Shown: in pieces, positions 15,693-33,049 of the stretch | How the letters are laid out: each line of letters begins with the position of its first letter | How positions within the stretch are numbered: the first letter of the stretch is position 1 | Source of the DNA: an uncultured Lutibacter sp. | GTDB taxonomy: Bacteria > Bacteroidota > Bacteroidia > Flavobacteriales > Flavobacteriaceae | Assembly (NCBI RefSeq): GCF_947495725.1 | Contig: NZ_CANLZZ010000005.1 | Span: 186,001 to 250,000 of the forward strand | Reading direction: 5' to 3' | DNA length: 64,000 nucleotides | Program-made: the position numbers and the translations under genes | The notes under the pieces: generated by a model | What the model was told of the DNA's origin: nothing | The model's input: the letters and a program-made list of their open reading frames with translations, nothing else | Databases searched by the model: none

Positions 15693-15808
15693 TTTATTTA
15701 TTTAATTTATGTGATTACAACAAATCAAACCTTAGGTAATAAATATGGTAGCATATAAAAAACGTACCATAAGCTTTTATCCCCGAAAGCTTTGATATTT
15801 AATATGTA

Positions 15809-15978
15809 ATTAGGCAGGTTTCCTGACTCATTTCAGCTTTATTTACCTTCCCATTTTTTTAAAAAACAGTGGTTGTGGTAAAGCCATCTCGGTGAATTAA
15901 CACCAGTGAAATTTACAGTAGCGGGAACTGTTCAGAGTTTTCATCTGATTCCCTTTTAAACTTATAAAGTCACCTAAA
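15809..15978 (-). ncRNA. Cobalamin riboswitch
   Basis: The minus-strand leader holds the diagnostic B12-box GTCAGGAAACCTGCC (about 15813-15828), the upstream 'AAAAGGGAA' and 'CAGTTCCCGCTACTGTAA' elements (about 15915-15960), and a closing P1 helix pairing TTAGG near 15976 with CCTAA near 15812. About 115 nt separate it from the lipoprotein ATG, room for an expression platform: a TATGGTA/TACCATA hairpin lies at 15744-15771. Known members of this class turn expression off when cobalamin is bound. Confidence 0.93.
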
Positions 15979-15985
15979 AACGTGG

Positions 15986-15993
15986 CAAATTTA
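15986..15993 (-). promoter_or_regulatory. -7 box TAAATTTG just upstream of the cobalamin riboswitch
   Basis: Minus strand TAAATTTG fits TAnnTTTG. It would start transcription a few bases before the riboswitch P1 helix, which is where an aptamer leader should begin. Confidence 0.5.
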
Positions 15994-27377: not shown

Positions 27378-27404
27378 TGTAGCGTTTTTAAGAATTTGAA
27401 CGTA
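27378..27404 (+). promoter_or_regulatory. Candidate ECF sigma promoter, copy 1
   Basis: TGTAGCGTTTT (27378-27388), 11 nt, then ACGTA (27400-27404). The same words at the same spacing recur at 30419-30445 before the second transcription unit of the island. It lies 60 nt before the first lipoprotein ATG. Identification as an ECF promoter is inference from the repeat and its context. Confidence 0.55.
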
Positions 27405-27463
27405 TAGGTTTTATATGTTGAAATTTATTTTTCAATAATTTAATCAGTTTAAATTTATATAAA

Positions 27464-27904
27464 ATGAAACAAATAATTACATTGTTAGTACTTGTATTAA
27501 CATTAAATTCCTGTGACCTTAATGACGATTGTGGTGAATGCTTCACTCCGCCACCAGAATTTAATTTTAAATTTGTAGATAAAGTTACAGGAGAAGATTT
27601 AATTTATAATGGAACTGTTAGTTTAGACAACATTGAAATTAAGGATGAAGAAGATAAAATAATAGATTTTGAAAAACACCTTATAAACGATGAGTTTATA
27701 ATTTCTGTTTATTCAATTGGATGGGAATTAGATGCTAAAACATATACAATTTATTTAAGTGACACGATTAATGTAGTTTTTGATTTAGATATGGATACAG
27801 TAAGTGAAGATTGTTGTACTTTTTTCGAGGTTAAAAATTTTGATGTTCTTGATTATGAGTACGAAGTTGATAATTACAGAGGTGTTATAGTTGTTAAAAT
27901 TTAA
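27464..27904 (+). CDS. Hypothetical lipoprotein, first gene of the ECF island
   Basis: 146 aa. Signal peptide and lipobox MKQIITLLVLVLTLNSC place the acylated Cys at 17, and Cys-rich sequence follows (DLNDDCGECF and a later DCC). The rest is acidic and beta-rich with no recognised domain. The closely spaced Cys residues could form disulfides in the periplasm. Directly followed by another lipoprotein gene; function unknown. Confidence 0.72.
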   Translation: MKQIITLLVLVLTLNSCDLNDDCGECFTPPPEFNFKFVDKVTGEDLIYNGTVSLDNIEIKDEEDKIIDFEKHLINDEFIISVYSIGWELDAKTYTIYLSDTINVVFDLDMDTVSEDCCTFFEVKNFDVLDYEYEVDNYRGVIVVKI

Positions 27905-27908
27905 TTAT

Positions 27909-28463
27909 ATGAAAAGAAGGTTGTACACCATTATAATAAGTTGCTTTACGTTGTTTTTTAGTTATTCATGTAGCTCGGATGGAGATTCTGAGTCTGTAGA
28001 TTCGATATATTTAGATTATTCGAGTAATAATGATATTAAGGCAGATGGAGACTCAGAAGAGTTTTTAAGAGCTAAACTTCGAATAAACAAAGATGTTTTT
28101 AACGATTTAAATGAAAAACGAATTAAAAACATTTCAAAAGGTGATACTTACTCTATTAATTATGTTAAAAGAGAAGGAGATTTTATTCAAGTAAATTTGT
28201 CGTATAGCGGGGGCTGTAAAAATCACGATTTTGAAGTAATTTGGGATGGTGTTGTTTATACAGATGAACCTTGTCATATGAATTTAATGTTGGTTCACGA
28301 TGCCAATGACGATCTATGTGAAGCATATATTACAGAAACTATTGTAATTAATTTAGAAGCACTTATTGGAGACGTAGACTATAAAGATACTTGTTCGTAT
28401 AATATTTTTAGCACTTACAACTCGGGAGAAAATGCTGATGCCATAGTTAAAGGAATGAATTAA
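27909..28463 (+). CDS. Hypothetical lipoprotein, second gene of the ECF island
   Basis: 184 aa from the ATG at 27909; an upstream in-frame TTG at 27891 would overlap the previous gene and spoil the signal peptide. The lipobox is LFFSYSC with Cys19, followed by SSDGDSESVDS. Several Cys and an acidic beta-rich body (SGGCKNHDFEVIWDGVVY) are visible. No known domain recognised. It lies 37 nt upstream of the ECF sigma gene. Confidence 0.72.
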   Translation: MKRRLYTIIISCFTLFFSYSCSSDGDSESVDSIYLDYSSNNDIKADGDSEEFLRAKLRINKDVFNDLNEKRIKNISKGDTYSINYVKREGDFIQVNLSYSGGCKNHDFEVIWDGVVYTDEPCHMNLMLVHDANDDLCEAYITETIVINLEALIGDVDYKDTCSYNIFSTYNSGENADAIVKGMN

Positions 28464-28500
28464 ATCTAATATAGAAAACTTAGTATTTAATTAAAATAAT

Positions 28501-29055
28501 TTGGAGCAGGACATAGATAGAAATATATTTTTAGATAATATCCTTGCAGAATGTAAAAGGGGAAATGTATTGCATCAAGAAATGTTATACAAACACTTTT
28601 ATGGATATGCTTTAAGTATTTGTCGTTTATACACTTACTCTAATGATGAGGCTGTTTCAATTTTGAATGATAGTTTTTTAAAGGTATTTTCATCAATTGA
28701 AAAGAAAGGGTATAACAACTCAATTCCTTTTAAAAATTGGTTAAGGCGAGTTTTAATTAATACTGCTATTGATAATTATCGAAAGAACTCTAAACATTAT
28801 TATCATTCTGATGTAGATGAAGCAGAAAGTGTTAAAGCTGACATAAATATTATAGAAGATTTAACGGTTGAGGATATTTTAAAACTATTAGATCAGTTGC
28901 CCGAAATACATAGAATAGTATTTAATATGTTCGAAATTCAGGGCTATAGTCATAAAGAAATTTCGGAAAAATTAAGCATAGGTGAAAGCACATCGAGAGT
29001 TTTTTTAACACGTGCAAAAAAAAAATTGAGAGTTTTAATTGGAAAAAACTTTTAA
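28501..29055 (+). CDS. ECF-type RNA polymerase sigma factor
   Basis: Group IV sigma-70 family protein, 184 aa, starting at a TTG. Region 2 spans about residues 25-95, with YGYALSICRLYTYSNDEAV and FKNWLRRVLINTAIDNYRK for -10 binding. Region 4 (about 125-180) has LPEIHRIVFNMFEIQGYSHKEISE and the recognition helix IGESTSRVFLTRAKKKLR for -35 binding. No region 3. It is followed 4 nt later by a membrane protein that is probably its regulator. The shared motif before both transcription units suggests autoregulation. Confidence 0.9.
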   Translation: MEQDIDRNIFLDNILAECKRGNVLHQEMLYKHFYGYALSICRLYTYSNDEAVSILNDSFLKVFSSIEKKGYNNSIPFKNWLRRVLINTAIDNYRKNSKHYYHSDVDEAESVKADINIIEDLTVEDILKLLDQLPEIHRIVFNMFEIQGYSHKEISEKLSIGESTSRVFLTRAKKKLRVLIGKNF

Positions 29056-29059
29056 ATAA

Positions 29060-30409
29060 ATGGAAGATAAGTTTGATAAAATATTAAGTAACAAAATTAG
29101 AGAACTCTCAGATAATATTGAGATTCCTTATAATCCAGAGCATTGGAATATGTTGCTTTCGAAAAAAAATAAAAAGAAAAAACGCATATTCCTTTATTGG
29201 AAATATGCCGCTGTTATTTTAATGGCTTTATTTGCTGGAGGATTGGGGAACTATTTTTATAAGAGTTCAATTTCAAATGAAAATATGAAACCCAAAATTA
29301 TATTTGATAAAACAAATGATTCATTGCGTTTGGATACATTAAAGAAAAATCCAAATGTAATAATTTCATCAATAAATGTTGATAGTTTGATTAACATCAA
29401 TTCAAAAATTGTTGTAAAGGATAGTACAAATAAAATAATTCCGCATATTAGTAAAAAAAGAGGGTTTAAAGCTATTAATACTAAGGTTGCTAAAAATAAT
29501 ACTAAGTTAAAAAACGCATCAAATAATAAGGTTGAAATTGATTCTATAATTCTTAAAAAGAGTGATTTAATTAACAAAATTGAAAATGATTTTATTGTGC
29601 AATCTGTATCTGACACACTCAAAGATGTAGCATTAATAAAAGAAGAAATTGTTTTAAAAGAAAAAGAAGTTACAAAGGATAGTTTAATAGAAAAAGAGAA
29701 TTTAATTGCGTTGGTTGAGGAAGAAAAAACTAAATTAGAAAACAGCAAAAGGGCCGTTAAAGTAGGTTTAAGTTTGTCACCTATTTTAGATTCGTATCAA
29801 GAAAACGAAAATTCTAATATTGGTTTTTCTGGTGGAGTTATGATCGAAATTCCATTGTTTAAAAATTTCCATATTAATTCTGGAGTTTACTATGCAGATC
29901 AAAAATTAGATTTAAATAAACCGTCAAATTATTTAGTTGATGGAGTTAGCGCTAAAGAATCGAAACAAATTGTTAATAAAGAAGCCGTAATAAAGGGTAT
30001 TGAAATTCCATTAAATATTAAATACAATTTTAATGTAAATAAAAAAAACGTATTTGTATCGGCTGGATTTTCCTCAACTTCTTATATAACTGAAAATATT
30101 GAATCTGAATATTTAGTTAATAATAGAACAGAATTAAGTACACAAGATTCATTTGGTAATAATATTGTTCAATACAATTTAGTTCAATTATCAGAAAAGG
30201 TAATAACAGAAAACAAGTCAAATGCTTTTAATTTAGCCAATGCTTTAAACTTTTCTTTGGGAATTGAATTACCAGTTAATAAACAACATCAGTCTATTGT
30301 TATAGAACCTTATTTTAAATACTCACTTCAGTCAGTTACTCAGCAAAAAATAGATTTTAATAGTGCGGGAGTTCATTTACGCTATAATTTTAGTTTTCAA
30401 AAAAAATAA
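29060..30409 (+). CDS. Membrane-anchored sigma partner with C-terminal outer-membrane beta-barrel-like domain
   Basis: 449 aa, 4 nt after the sigma gene. A short cytoplasmic head of about 47 residues contains EIPYNPEHWNML, a motif I associate with proteins encoded after ECF sigma genes in this phylum. One membrane helix follows (about residues 49-66), then a long Lys/Asp/Ser-rich linker (about 70-225). The C-terminal 220 residues have alternating hydrophobic strands and end in aromatic YNFSFQKK, like porin-family beta-barrels. This layout would join inner and outer membranes. The anti-sigma role is inferred from position and topology. Confidence 0.75.
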   Translation: MEDKFDKILSNKIRELSDNIEIPYNPEHWNMLLSKKNKKKKRIFLYWKYAAVILMALFAGGLGNYFYKSSISNENMKPKIIFDKTNDSLRLDTLKKNPNVIISSINVDSLININSKIVVKDSTNKIIPHISKKRGFKAINTKVAKNNTKLKNASNNKVEIDSIILKKSDLINKIENDFIVQSVSDTLKDVALIKEEIVLKEKEVTKDSLIEKENLIALVEEEKTKLENSKRAVKVGLSLSPILDSYQENENSNIGFSGGVMIEIPLFKNFHINSGVYYADQKLDLNKPSNYLVDGVSAKESKQIVNKEAVIKGIEIPLNIKYNFNVNKKNVFVSAGFSSTSYITENIESEYLVNNRTELSTQDSFGNNIVQYNLVQLSEKVITENKSNAFNLANALNFSLGIELPVNKQHQSIVIEPYFKYSLQSVTQQKIDFNSAGVHLRYNFSFQKK

Positions 30410-30418
30410 TTAATTTTT

Positions 30419-30445
30419 TGTAGCGTTTTGTAACTTCAATACGTA
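30419..30445 (+). promoter_or_regulatory. Candidate ECF sigma promoter, copy 2
   Basis: TGTAGCGTTTT (30419-30429), 11 nt, then ACGTA (30441-30445), identical in words and spacing to 27378-27404. It stands 108 nt before the VWA lipoprotein gene and defines the second transcription unit of the island. Confidence 0.55.
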
Positions 30446-30552
30446 CTGTAATTAATAGGTTAAAAATTTAATTTTACAATTAATTACAAAAATTATAGAA
30501 TCTCAATGCTTGCTTTATAGGCAAGCTGAGGTTTTATATAAAAAAGAAAAAG

Positions 30553-31761
30553 ATGGTTTCAAAAATTTTAAAGAAAATTGCATTTAGTTTAGTAGCATTG
30601 GTATTTTTATTATTTTCAGCTTGTAATGAAGATGGTTTAAGCGAAACAATTGATGGGGATTATTCGGGAGACATTAAATTAAGTTCGGAAGGATCTGGTG
30701 TTGAAACTCCAGGAGGATCGGATCAAGGTAATGGGAATAATACAGGATTGATAACAGCAGGAGAGTGGAATGATCTTGAAAATTGGAATTTTTGGAAGAA
30801 TATTTTAAATGAAAACGAATACTTTAAAAATGTAAGTTACTGGGAGTTTTATACCCTAAAAAGAATTTCTGTTCAAGTTAAAAATAACGCAACACCAATT
30901 ATTAATTCAAAAGTTGAATTAAAATTAAATAATGAGTTGGTTTGGCAAAGTATGACAGATAATTTTGGGAAAACAGAACTTTTTGTCGATTTATTTAAAG
31001 ACTCTAATATTAGTAATTTTAATGGATTTAAATTGTTTATTAATGGTATAGAAAATACCACTCCTTTAAAATTTGTTGAAGATGGAATTGTAGAAGTTGA
31101 GTTAAATTCAGCTCAAAACAATAGTTCAAATAAAGTTGAAATTGCATTTATTGTGGACGCAACTGGATCTATGGGTGATGAATTAGAATTTTTAAAGGAT
31201 GATTTAAAAGACGTTATTCAACGTTCCGAGCAAAGTAATTCGGAGTTAGATATTTTTACAGGAACTGTTTTTTACAGAGATAGAGATGATGATTATTTAG
31301 TAAAAAGTTCTGGTTTTACAAACAATATAAGTTCAACTTTAAATTTTATAAACCAGCAAAGTGCTAATGGTGGTGGAGATTTTCCCGAAGCGGTTGATTC
31401 AGCATTAGATGAAGCTTTAACAGAATTGCAGTGGTCTTTAAATTCTAGAACCCGAATTGCATTTTTATTATTGGATGCACCACCACATTACAATGTTCAA
31501 ATTTTAGATAAATTACACAGTTTAATTACTAAATACGCAGAAAAAGGTATTAAACTTATCCCAATAACAGCTAGTGGAATTGATAAAGAAACAGAGTTTT
31601 TAATGCGATTTTTTGCAGTTAGTACAAATGGAACCTATGTTTTTATAACTAACGATAGTGGTATTGGAAATGAACATTTAGAGGCAAGTGTTGGAGATTA
31701 TCAGGTTGAAAATTTAAATAATTTATTGGTAAGACTCATTGACAAGTACTCTACAAATTAA
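30553..31761 (+). CDS. VWA domain-containing lipoprotein
   Basis: 402 aa. Lipobox LLFSAC with Cys24, a Gly/Ser/Asn-rich spacer, a beta-sandwich region about residues 95-190 resembling a carboxypeptidase-regulatory or Ig-like fold, then a von Willebrand A domain from about 195. The metal-ion-dependent adhesion site is intact: Asp202-Ala-Thr-Gly-Ser206, then a conserved GGGDFPEAVDSAL and LLLDAPPH. Such domains bind protein ligands through a divalent metal. Lead gene of the second unit, with its own copy of the shared promoter-like motif. Confidence 0.85.
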   Translation: MVSKILKKIAFSLVALVFLLFSACNEDGLSETIDGDYSGDIKLSSEGSGVETPGGSDQGNGNNTGLITAGEWNDLENWNFWKNILNENEYFKNVSYWEFYTLKRISVQVKNNATPIINSKVELKLNNELVWQSMTDNFGKTELFVDLFKDSNISNFNGFKLFINGIENTTPLKFVEDGIVEVELNSAQNNSSNKVEIAFIVDATGSMGDELEFLKDDLKDVIQRSEQSNSELDIFTGTVFYRDRDDDYLVKSSGFTNNISSTLNFINQQSANGGGDFPEAVDSALDEALTELQWSLNSRTRIAFLLLDAPPHYNVQILDKLHSLITKYAEKGIKLIPITASGIDKETEFLMRFFAVSTNGTYVFITNDSGIGNEHLEASVGDYQVENLNNLLVRLIDKYSTN

Positions 31762-31795
31762 TTATTAAATTAGATGTTAGAATAAAAAAAGACTG

Positions 31796-32602
31796 ATGAA
31801 AAAGTATTTACTATTTATACTGGCAGTTTATACATTAAGTTGTAATTCTGATGATGAACTATCAAGTAATTCTGAATTCTCAGAGTTTATTTCAGAAAAT
31901 AAAATAGACTCTGACATTAATTTTATGCCAGTTGAAATATATAATACTAATGAGTTGCAAGAACCAATACTAAAATTAAAGTTAGTTACTTCTAAAATTT
32001 ACCCTTGTATAAATTTTTCTTTGTCAACTACTGAATTTATAAAAAACAACGAATTAATTATAAGGTTTGAAGGAATAATTGAATCGGAAATTTGCCTTAC
32101 AGCAATTGGCCCTGCAATGTCTTACGTTGATTTACCTAAAACTATAAATAAAATAACCTTTATAAATGGTAATAGTATTGATACATATTCTATAGAAATT
32201 AATCAAAACAAAATTTCTATTTCACCTATCGAAAACAGATTTACTAATTCATTATACAACGAAACTTTTAGAATTCCAGAAAATTCATTTGCATATGTAT
32301 GTGGAACAAATACAAACAATACAAATATTTATTCCGATTTTTTAGCAATACTATCCGAAAATCCAAGCTTTGAGGAATTTGAATTTGAAGGAGAGGGGAG
32401 AATTCCTTATCCTTTAAGCTCAGATGGAAATTGGGTTAATCACCCTTCGCGGTATTTCACCTATTCTAATTTTGAAAAATTTAAAGATTTAGGTAACATT
32501 TTAAATGAATATTCTATTGAAAATATTGAAGAAAATTCAGGAGTAACAATTGCAATTTATAGTTGGAATAATATTAATTATTACAGTTGGATTGATAATT
32601 AA
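31796..32602 (+). CDS. Hypothetical lipoprotein of the ECF island
   Basis: 268 aa with lipobox LAVYTLSC (Cys16) followed by NSDDELSSNSE, an acidic patch compatible with surface export. The body is rich in Asn, Ile and Glu, with four Cys. No known domain recognised. 34 nt after the VWA gene. Confidence 0.72.
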   Translation: MKKYLLFILAVYTLSCNSDDELSSNSEFSEFISENKIDSDINFMPVEIYNTNELQEPILKLKLVTSKIYPCINFSLSTTEFIKNNELIIRFEGIIESEICLTAIGPAMSYVDLPKTINKITFINGNSIDTYSIEINQNKISISPIENRFTNSLYNETFRIPENSFAYVCGTNTNNTNIYSDFLAILSENPSFEEFEFEGEGRIPYPLSSDGNWVNHPSRYFTYSNFEKFKDLGNILNEYSIENIEENSGVTIAIYSWNNINYYSWIDN

Positions 32603-32614
32603 AAGAATTATTTT

Positions 32615-33049
32615 ATGAAAAACCACTTTTTAATTGGACTATTTGTTTGTTTATTTATTTCGTGCAGTCGAAATGAAGAATTAACCAATAATGGTGAGTA
32701 CTATGCGTTAATAAAAATGAGTGGAAGTATTGCAGGTTCTGAAACCACTGGTGAAGATATGGAATGGCAAGAAACAATTTGTCTTTATTCAAATAACACA
32801 TTTACAAAAATTCGTTTTACTGAAGATGAAAAAATTGAAGCTTTTGGATCCTATTCTAAAAAGATAATTGAATCTGAAGAATTTGTAGAACTTGTTTATG
32901 ATATTGATAATTCGCTTATTGCAAATTATACGGGCAATTTAATTGAACATCTTATTGTTTTGGATGATTATAGTTTACAAGGCACTTGGAGTTATTGCGA
33001 TGGACCAGTTTTAGAATATTCTAAGGCAATCTTATGTGGTACTATTTAA
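32615..33049 (+). CDS. Hypothetical small lipoprotein of the ECF island
   Basis: 144 aa with lipobox LFVCLFISC and SRNEELTNN following. The remainder looks like a small lipocalin- or META-like beta-barrel (ETICLYSNNTFTKIRFTEDE, LQGTWSYCDG) as seen in many Bacteroidota lipoproteins, but this is only a fold impression. Last gene of the island, 12 nt after the previous gene and followed by a terminator. Confidence 0.72.
   Translation: MKNHFLIGLFVCLFISCSRNEELTNNGEYYALIKMSGSIAGSETTGEDMEWQETICLYSNNTFTKIRFTEDEKIEAFGSYSKKIIESEEFVELVYDIDNSLIANYTGNLIEHLIVLDDYSLQGTWSYCDGPVLEYSKAILCGTI

Follow-up and report, generated by a model that had tools for sequence, protein, structure and literature searches.

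The stretch of DNA analysed here (the window; 64,000 nucleotides (nt), positions 186,001 to 250,000 of contig NZ_CANLZZ010000005.1, assembly GCF_947495725.1) originates from an uncultured Lutibacter sp. of the family Flavobacteriaceae and carries, between its positions 27378 and 33049, an island encoding an extracytoplasmic function (ECF) sigma factor, a membrane-spanning partner and five lipoproteins, one of which possesses a VWA domain. A first-pass annotation, made from the sequence alone, had described this gene content, which is borne out by Pfam matches and by five open reading frames (ORFs) in which a lipobox was recognised by eye, and had pointed to a bipartite promoter-like motif ahead of each of two transcription units. 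Both copies of the motif were recovered exactly, with identical words and spacing (TGTAGCGTTTT-N11-ACGTA), as promoter 1 (27378..27404) and promoter 2 (30419..30445); the pattern is ECF-like, with TGTAGC as the -35 element, CGTA as the -10 element and 17 nt between the two. Promoter 1 is followed by the genes for lipoprotein LP1 (146 amino acids (aa), 27464..27904), lipoprotein LP2 (184 aa, 27909..28463), the sigma factor (184 aa, 28501..29055) and a Dma-type partner (449 aa, 29060..30409). Behind promoter 2 are a candidate small RNA (sRNA) of approximately 83 nt (30455..30537) and the genes for the VWA-domain lipoprotein (402 aa, 30553..31761), LP4 (268 aa, 31796..32602) and LP5 (144 aa, 32615..33049), all of these features being on the forward strand.

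With up to three mismatches allowed, four motif sites were identified in the window, as compared to a mean of 0.61 in shuffled sequences, with none of 100 shuffles reaching four; the remaining two sites carry three mismatches each and overlap reading frames (L029, L030). The genome-wide mismatch search that the first-pass annotation had proposed revealed no crowd of credible sites: the 4.24 Mb genome (G000) holds the motif twice in exact form, once with a single mismatch, never with two mismatches and 34 times with three. Since a reversed control pattern yields more, namely 64 matches at up to three mismatches, the three-mismatch level is regarded as noise, and only the first three sites are considered credible. 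The three-mismatch matches were examined as additional regulon members and rejected, as 26 of the 27 inspected (out of 34) overlap an ORF of at least 70 aa. The earlier impression, gained by eye, that no other copy exists thus holds for exact copies, but a third copy with one mismatch is located outside the window (C4:192128-192154), 65 nt upstream of a lipobox ORF. The product of this ORF contains the LVIVD repeat (PF08309, E 1.8e-9) and is classed as an LVIVD beta-propeller lipoprotein; its gene is flanked by what we take to be miaB-like and topA-like genes. With this third site ahead of a distant gene, the regulon extends beyond the island and is not, as originally proposed, self-contained, and relatives add YfbK-type VWA and FKBP lipoproteins to it.

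Conservation was assessed in 38 genomes of the genus, in which the partner was called at E <=1e-5 and TGTAGC-N17-CGTA was searched. The partner is present in 16 of the 38 genomes and, when the regions upstream of orthologous islands were compared, as had also been suggested in the first-pass annotation, the motif in the form TGTAGCGTT-N14-CGTA was found to be retained in 15 of these 16, as opposed to none of the 22 partner-less genomes (Fisher test, 1e-9, a value that ignores the relatedness of the genomes and is therefore too optimistic). The 15 genomes contain 41 such sites, none of which lies inside an ORF of at least 100 aa, and at 35 of them the next ORF (at least 90 aa, within approximately 390 nt) carries a lipobox. 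The six others are promoter 2 of G004 and G008, behind which there is no such ORF, promoter 1 of G019, directly before the sigma gene, promoter 1 of G030, before a gene for a barrel-like protein, and a site in noncoding DNA in each of G026 and G027. In G030 and G034, promoter 1 stands ahead of extra genes upstream of the sigma operon. By this comparison of motif and sigma/partner pair, a sigma regulon is well supported, its sites being candidates as regards binding by the sigma factor.

With respect to location, the 41 sites lie before the sigma operon (15 genomes), directly after dma (nine), before genes for the LVIVD lipoprotein (nine), a YfbK-type VWA lipoprotein (three; G004, G026 and G027), an FKBP lipoprotein (two; G006 and G019) or a small lipoprotein (one; G003), and in the noncoding DNA mentioned above (two). 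Assignment by Pfam covers two of the nine LVIVD, one of the three YfbK-type and one of the two FKBP proteins, the others being assigned by reading their sequences. Variants directly after dma, not counted among the 41, have the TGTAGCTAT form in G030 and G034 and the TGAAGC form in G006. The noncoding sites of G026 and G027 (L108 at 2740 and L111 at 2700) are perfect TGTAGCGTTTT-N12-CGTA matches before a noncoding stretch approximately 460 nt ahead of an ORF, which we take to be UpxY/NusG-like; these sites possibly precede another RNA, and both genomes are without a strong match to the sRNA candidate behind dma.

The motif was additionally searched in 299 genomes of the family, with five partner candidates scored per genome. 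The partner was found in five of these (three of the genus, G145 and G154) and the motif in 16; outside the genus, both partner-bearing genomes have it at the island, as opposed to 11 of 294 genomes without a partner match (Fisher test, 0.0018). In G145 the motif precedes the gene for a lipoprotein (weakly NigD-like; PF17415, E 0.023) followed by the sigma gene, and in G154 it precedes the sigma gene, with a second copy before the lipobox gene that follows dma. Among the 11 other genomes, nine matches lie inside ORFs and that of G249 precedes a lipobox ORF that belongs to no known family, the eleventh being in G073. In G145 an FKBP lipoprotein gene was also observed directly upstream of the motif and the lipoprotein/sigma/partner operon (L227), this being the same type of peptidyl-prolyl isomerase (PPIase) as the separate motif target of G006 and G019.

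For a wider comparison, the best 80 of 157 named loci with related sigma genes were considered, of which 16 of close Lutibacter type were set aside and 64 (one being a remote Lutibacter) were scanned over the 1300 nt upstream of the sigma gene. The motif occurs at zero or one mismatch in ten of the 64 loci, three of these ten belonging to Dyadobacter and not being independent; this corresponds to 11 matches versus none on the opposite strand and 0.4 in mononucleotide shuffles, while the figures at two mismatches are 11 versus two and 6.9. Gene order was read in ten of the 64 loci (six of them motif-bearing): the sigma gene is followed by a partner-like ORF in all ten, and is preceded by a lipobox-like ORF in eight (not in L163 and L181). 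The word TGTAGCGT-N15-CGTA is present in exact form in four of ten distant genomes, at eight sites versus four for the reversed control, of which six have a clear setting: two at islands (L241, L244), three before other lipobox-like ORFs (L243, L245, L248) and one (L242) located 231 nt before an FKBP ORF (Pfam, 3.6e-6) and overlapped by a doubtful long ORF. A stricter word, searched in 392 genomes of the phylum, yielded nine sites in seven genomes (four for the reversed control), of which three are those of the present genome, one is that of G145 and five are others. Three of these five precede lipoprotein genes, all being of one other family from another order of the same class, and one of the targets is an LVIVD lipoprotein with 36% identity to the Lutibacter LVIVD target over 418 columns; another site faces away from a sigma/partner pair at a distance of 159 nt. 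Given that the counts of these two wide searches are merely about twice those of the controls, their evidential weight rests on the places at which the sites occur.

The sigma gene adjoins the partner gene in the islands read, and the partner was examined by means of an AlphaFold2 model based on an alignment of 56 sequences (mean predicted local distance difference test (pLDDT) score 64.5, predicted template modelling score 0.46, lowest in the tether). The N-terminus is modelled as helices at residues 2-19 and from 26 onwards, and is conserved across the 56 homologs; similar N-termini were also seen by eye beside sigma genes in other orders. A hydrophobic stretch at approximately 47-66, identified by eye within the model helix 26-70, represents the predicted membrane helix, and is followed by a tether (69-228) with pLDDT below 50, predicted to be disordered, which is gapped and weakly conserved in the alignment. 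Residues 233-446 match an outer membrane barrel (PF13568, E 3.4e-8), with nine strands in the model, and Foldseek returned OmpA as the best match (E 1.4e-7; TM-score 0.58 by target and 0.26 by query, root mean square deviation 9.5), followed by NspA, OprF and OmpX among others, at modest TM-scores. Dma anti-sigma factors have been described as consisting of an N-terminal anti-sigma region, a membrane helix, a disordered tether and a C-terminal barrel (PMC13088901). The partner, as modelled, has this layout, its N-terminal helices being the candidate anti-sigma region. No sequence relatives in the PDB were found for the partner or for the VWA protein.

Downstream of promoter 2 and ahead of the VWA gene, positions 30450-30545 fold with a z-score of -5.2, and the candidate sRNA within them comprises a 5' AUAGGUU, an AU-rich region and a 3' hairpin (30494-30538) ending in UUUUAU, this conserved hairpin having gone unnoticed in the first-pass annotation. 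The same succession of -10 box, variable bases, invariant ATAGGTT, AU-rich stretch and hairpin is found in ten genomes, where 6-10 nt (9 nt in seven copies) separate the end of CGTA from ATAGGTT, so that the candidate has a sigma-type promoter of its own at a fitting distance. The copies lie directly behind promoter 2, which has the TGTAGCGTT form in eight and the TGTAGCTAT form in G030 and G034. The ten sequences counted here are also those used to derive the proposed hairpin, in which 96.7% of 180 cells are paired, compared to at most 47.8% for slid versions; eight of 18 pairs show changes on both sides, a number equalled in two of 500 shuffles, and the covariation score was reached by none of 500. 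The number of further pair types, one of five measures, is unexceptional (48 of 500 shuffles as high). A covariance model, built from the ten copies that it recovers, identifies one strong copy in each of ten of the 38 genus genomes (E <=1.2e-7), all of which are island-bearing (Fisher test against the partner, 1.7e-5), and nothing beyond these below E 0.03; four of 18 weaker matches (E 0.04-0.95) are opposite-strand echoes of the element, and the other 14 map to different places and were taken to be chance matches. Outside the genus, the 299 family genomes (15 candidates scored in each) gave a single weak match, in G102 (E 7e-4), which has no TGTAGCGTT site, and no further copies were found in 82 loci searched, the nine strong matches being the model's own sequences. 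No Rfam family matched near the RNA at the gathering threshold, the six matches at E <=10 being at chance level (best 0.32). The element of G006 (L085, 7838) has TGAAGC in promoter 2 and a hairpin that, judged by eye, seems to have decayed, and is likely a degenerating copy of the RNA. Taken on its sequence features, the conserved RNA behind promoter 2 is a probable sigma-driven sRNA.

A possible target of this RNA was sought through its complement. A 12-mer complementary to AUAGGUUAAUAA occurs at 27 sites in five genomes, five of which are the RNA gene itself, versus 26 for the reversed control, and a site shared by three genomes lies 48-53 nt before an ORF for an alanine-rich lipoprotein with orthologs in 19 of the 38 genus genomes (the start being unreadable in G010). 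The 5' untranslated region (5'UTR) of this gene is complementary to the invariant 5' end of the RNA and partly to a second stretch, and contains AACCTAT in all nine RNA-bearing genomes that have the ortholog, but also in five of the nine readable RNA-less genomes, the other four having GACCTAT. The RNA/UTR duplex is stronger than that of 200 of 200 shuffled UTRs in seven genomes and of 198 of 200 in G007 and G023; the mean is -19.6 for own pairs as against -18.6 for swapped ones, and 339 of 5000 permutations do equally well. When compared to windows of the same genome (eight genomes, G030 not being scored), the target ranks best, the RNA's own antisense aside, in G003, G004 and G034 and second in G000, while 23 windows in G001, 13 in G023, 69 in G008 and 124 in G007 are as low (own antisense included). 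The 5'UTR is highly conserved in L275-L293, with or without the sRNA, and an apparent hairpin, its arms differing between species, was noted in it by eye.

As regards the remaining island genes, the sigma factor is recognised by PF08281 (3.2e-14), PF04542 (3.6e-7) and alignment, the score for TIGR02985 being below that model's cut-off, and its close relatives are those of L. citreus (82%), L. oceani, L. litoralis, L. flavus and L. maritimus, the promoter words of L. flavus being the same as those of G004. All 15 island copies read (window 28501; L082-L096) have TTG as the called start of the sigma ORF, which may hold the level of the sigma factor under that of its partner. LP1 has a lipobox (LNSC), no Pfam family and orthologs in syntenic islands; it bears no real similarity to the lipoprotein behind the motif in L296. 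LP2 falls below the cut-off of both NF051862 (NigD1/NigD2; E 0.0011, 18.8 bits, cut-off 60) and PF17415 (E 0.027), as does, for NF051862, the best ortholog tried (G006; 29.4 bits, E 6.4e-7), and the curated model gave no match for the G034 ortholog or for the genes of G154 and G249; with the cut-off of this model not reached, LP2 is NigD-like at most. The VWA protein matches PF25106 (1.5e-10) and PF00092 (1.9e-5), while LP4 (orthologs in G026 and G027) and LP5 (orthologs in G001, G003, G006, G026, G027, G030 and G034) have no Pfam family. Elsewhere in the window, a cobalamin riboswitch is located at 15796-15992 on the reverse strand (RF00174, 95.5 bits, E 1.7e-22).

We consider it likely that the island constitutes a Das/Dma-type envelope-sensing sigma system of Lutibacter, together with the regulon and RNA proposed here. 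In such a system, the cytosolic N-terminus of the partner would hold the sigma factor at the inner membrane, while its C-terminal barrel would report the state of the outer membrane via the disordered tether. Once released, the sigma factor would direct RNA polymerase to TGTAGCGTTTT-N12-CGTA promoters, of which the first would serve its own operon with the NigD-like lipoprotein, thereby combining positive feedback with a co-made inhibitor. The second would yield the sRNA, which may act in trans, with some read-through into the accessory surface lipoproteins, and others would serve distant envelope lipoprotein genes, here that of the LVIVD beta-propeller lipoprotein. A further-reaching proposal is that the sigma factor, held by a dual-membrane anti-sigma factor, drives an RNA that pairs with the 5'UTR of a major lipoprotein and so curbs its synthesis, a counterpart of sigmaE with MicA/RybB that would have evolved independently in the Bacteroidota, and that the promoter code (TGTAGCGTTTT-N12-CGTA) and its lipoprotein/PPIase targets are shared across orders of the phylum; this is offered tentatively, as we would give it somewhat less than an even chance.

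Instead of a trans-acting RNA, the element behind promoter 2 might be a leader at the 5' end of the lipoprotein operon, an attenuator of that operon, or simply the terminator of the sigma-dma operon; we regard this as possible without being probable. A lipoprotein gene indeed follows the RNA in eight of the ten RNA-bearing genomes, and a terminator would fit the stem-loop equally; the invariant AUAGGUU near the expected 5' end of all ten copies would, however, be superfluous for a terminator. Moreover, promoter and RNA persist while the genes behind them change (VWA, LP5 or another lipoprotein) or vanish: in G004 and G008 no ORF of at least 90 aa starts within approximately 390 nt, and the only start-to-stop stretches of at least 20 aa have TTG or GTG starts at a distance of about 290 nt or more. 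An sRNA is favoured over a leader for this reason. Of the regulon first inferred, control of the sigma factor's own operon and of a second unit is strongly supported as a prediction by the comparison, but the second unit is something other than a mere surface operon, since the hairpin is conserved and the lipoprotein genes behind it vary or are absent.

It is also conceivable, though unlikely, that the motif is read by another sigma factor or DNA-binding regulator, of whose regulon the adjacent sigma gene would merely be a member. The link between sigma factor and motif derives from sequence rather than biochemistry, and genomes of this kind encode several ECF sigma factors, for example seven in F. 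psychrophilum (PMC9723704); on the other hand, the motif tracks the sigma/partner pair in genus and family, is also found ahead of related sigma genes from other orders, and has an ECF-like pattern of words and spacing, a -10 CGT box having been reported for ECF-type promoters of F. psychrophilum (PMC9723704). That the two window copies arose by accident or by a recent functionless duplication is highly improbable, as the window's base composition predicts 4e-5 exact copies per window and 0.003 per genome, the N11 spacers of the two copies differ, and all 41 sites in the 15 genomes avoid ORFs of at least 100 aa. Several observations nevertheless weigh against the sigma system as we propose it. 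The most remote genus member, G017, has the pair without a TGTAGCGTT site; 54 of the 64 distant loci lack the motif at zero or one mismatch upstream of the sigma gene, so that the promoter there must have diverged or be located elsewhere; and the wide searches exceed their controls only about twofold (eight versus four and nine versus four). The RNA model has no strong match in six of the 16 island genomes, and only four U follow the stem of the hairpin, on which a terminator scan made no call. Finally, the statistics for the alanine-rich lipoprotein mRNA are mixed, and its 5'UTR is a weak candidate target that stays a lead because it is conserved with or without the RNA.

Enterobacterial sigmaE is controlled by RseA/DegS, and the control predicted for the Lutibacter sigma factor is unrelated to this; likeness between the RNAs was checked by Rfam alone. 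The short RNAs MicA and RybB of the sigmaE response lower outer membrane protein synthesis (PMC1804206), and the Lutibacter system similarly combines a predicted envelope-stress sigma factor with a candidate RNA in its regulon. Outside the Proteobacteria, a sigmaE-dependent sRNA, FoxJ, is known from Fusobacterium nucleatum (PMC11005410), which represents another phylum and another sigma system. In B. thetaiotaomicron, Das/Dma systems (Das1/Dma1/NigD1 and Das2/Dma2) control vesiculation, NigD1 is required for the dma1 phenotype, and loss of dma2 leaves its own operon among the most induced genes (PMC13088901). The island resembles these in that an ECF sigma gene lies beside one for a partner with the predicted four-part layout, and differs in that its motif precedes genes for LVIVD, VWA and FKBP lipoproteins and a candidate RNA, the available part of that account containing neither a sigma-linked RNA nor a promoter motif (PMC13088901); likewise, the available parts of two further papers give no motif for Das-type sigma factors (PMC12596196, PMC7366714). 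It has been suggested that BTnc353, an sRNA of B. thetaiotaomicron, controls the BT_4720/21 sigma/anti-sigma pair post-transcriptionally (PMC10861873), whereas the candidate Lutibacter RNA is encoded behind the pair, under the pair's type of promoter. The SM6 promoters of F. psychrophilum are assigned to sigma-ECF, share the CGT -10 box and include one sigma/anti-sigma pair among their genes, which, unlike the Lutibacter regulon, comprise several type IX secretion components (PMC9723704). Among the matches listed for the open-licence literature, there was no recognisable work on this promoter or regulon or on a sigma-linked RNA in Lutibacter, and none on an sRNA under a Das-type sigma factor in Bacteroidota.

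The island would represent a type of sigma regulon that has come to light only recently, to which it adds a new promoter code and, probably, an RNA arm. Dma anti-sigma factors were first described a short time ago, and a concrete promoter word makes their regulons predictable in those Bacteroidota genomes that keep it, and ties the system to envelope lipoproteins (NigD-like, LVIVD and VWA) and to folding factors of the FKBP type. Should the RNA prove genuine, the Bacteroidota would gain an sRNA arm of the envelope stress response.

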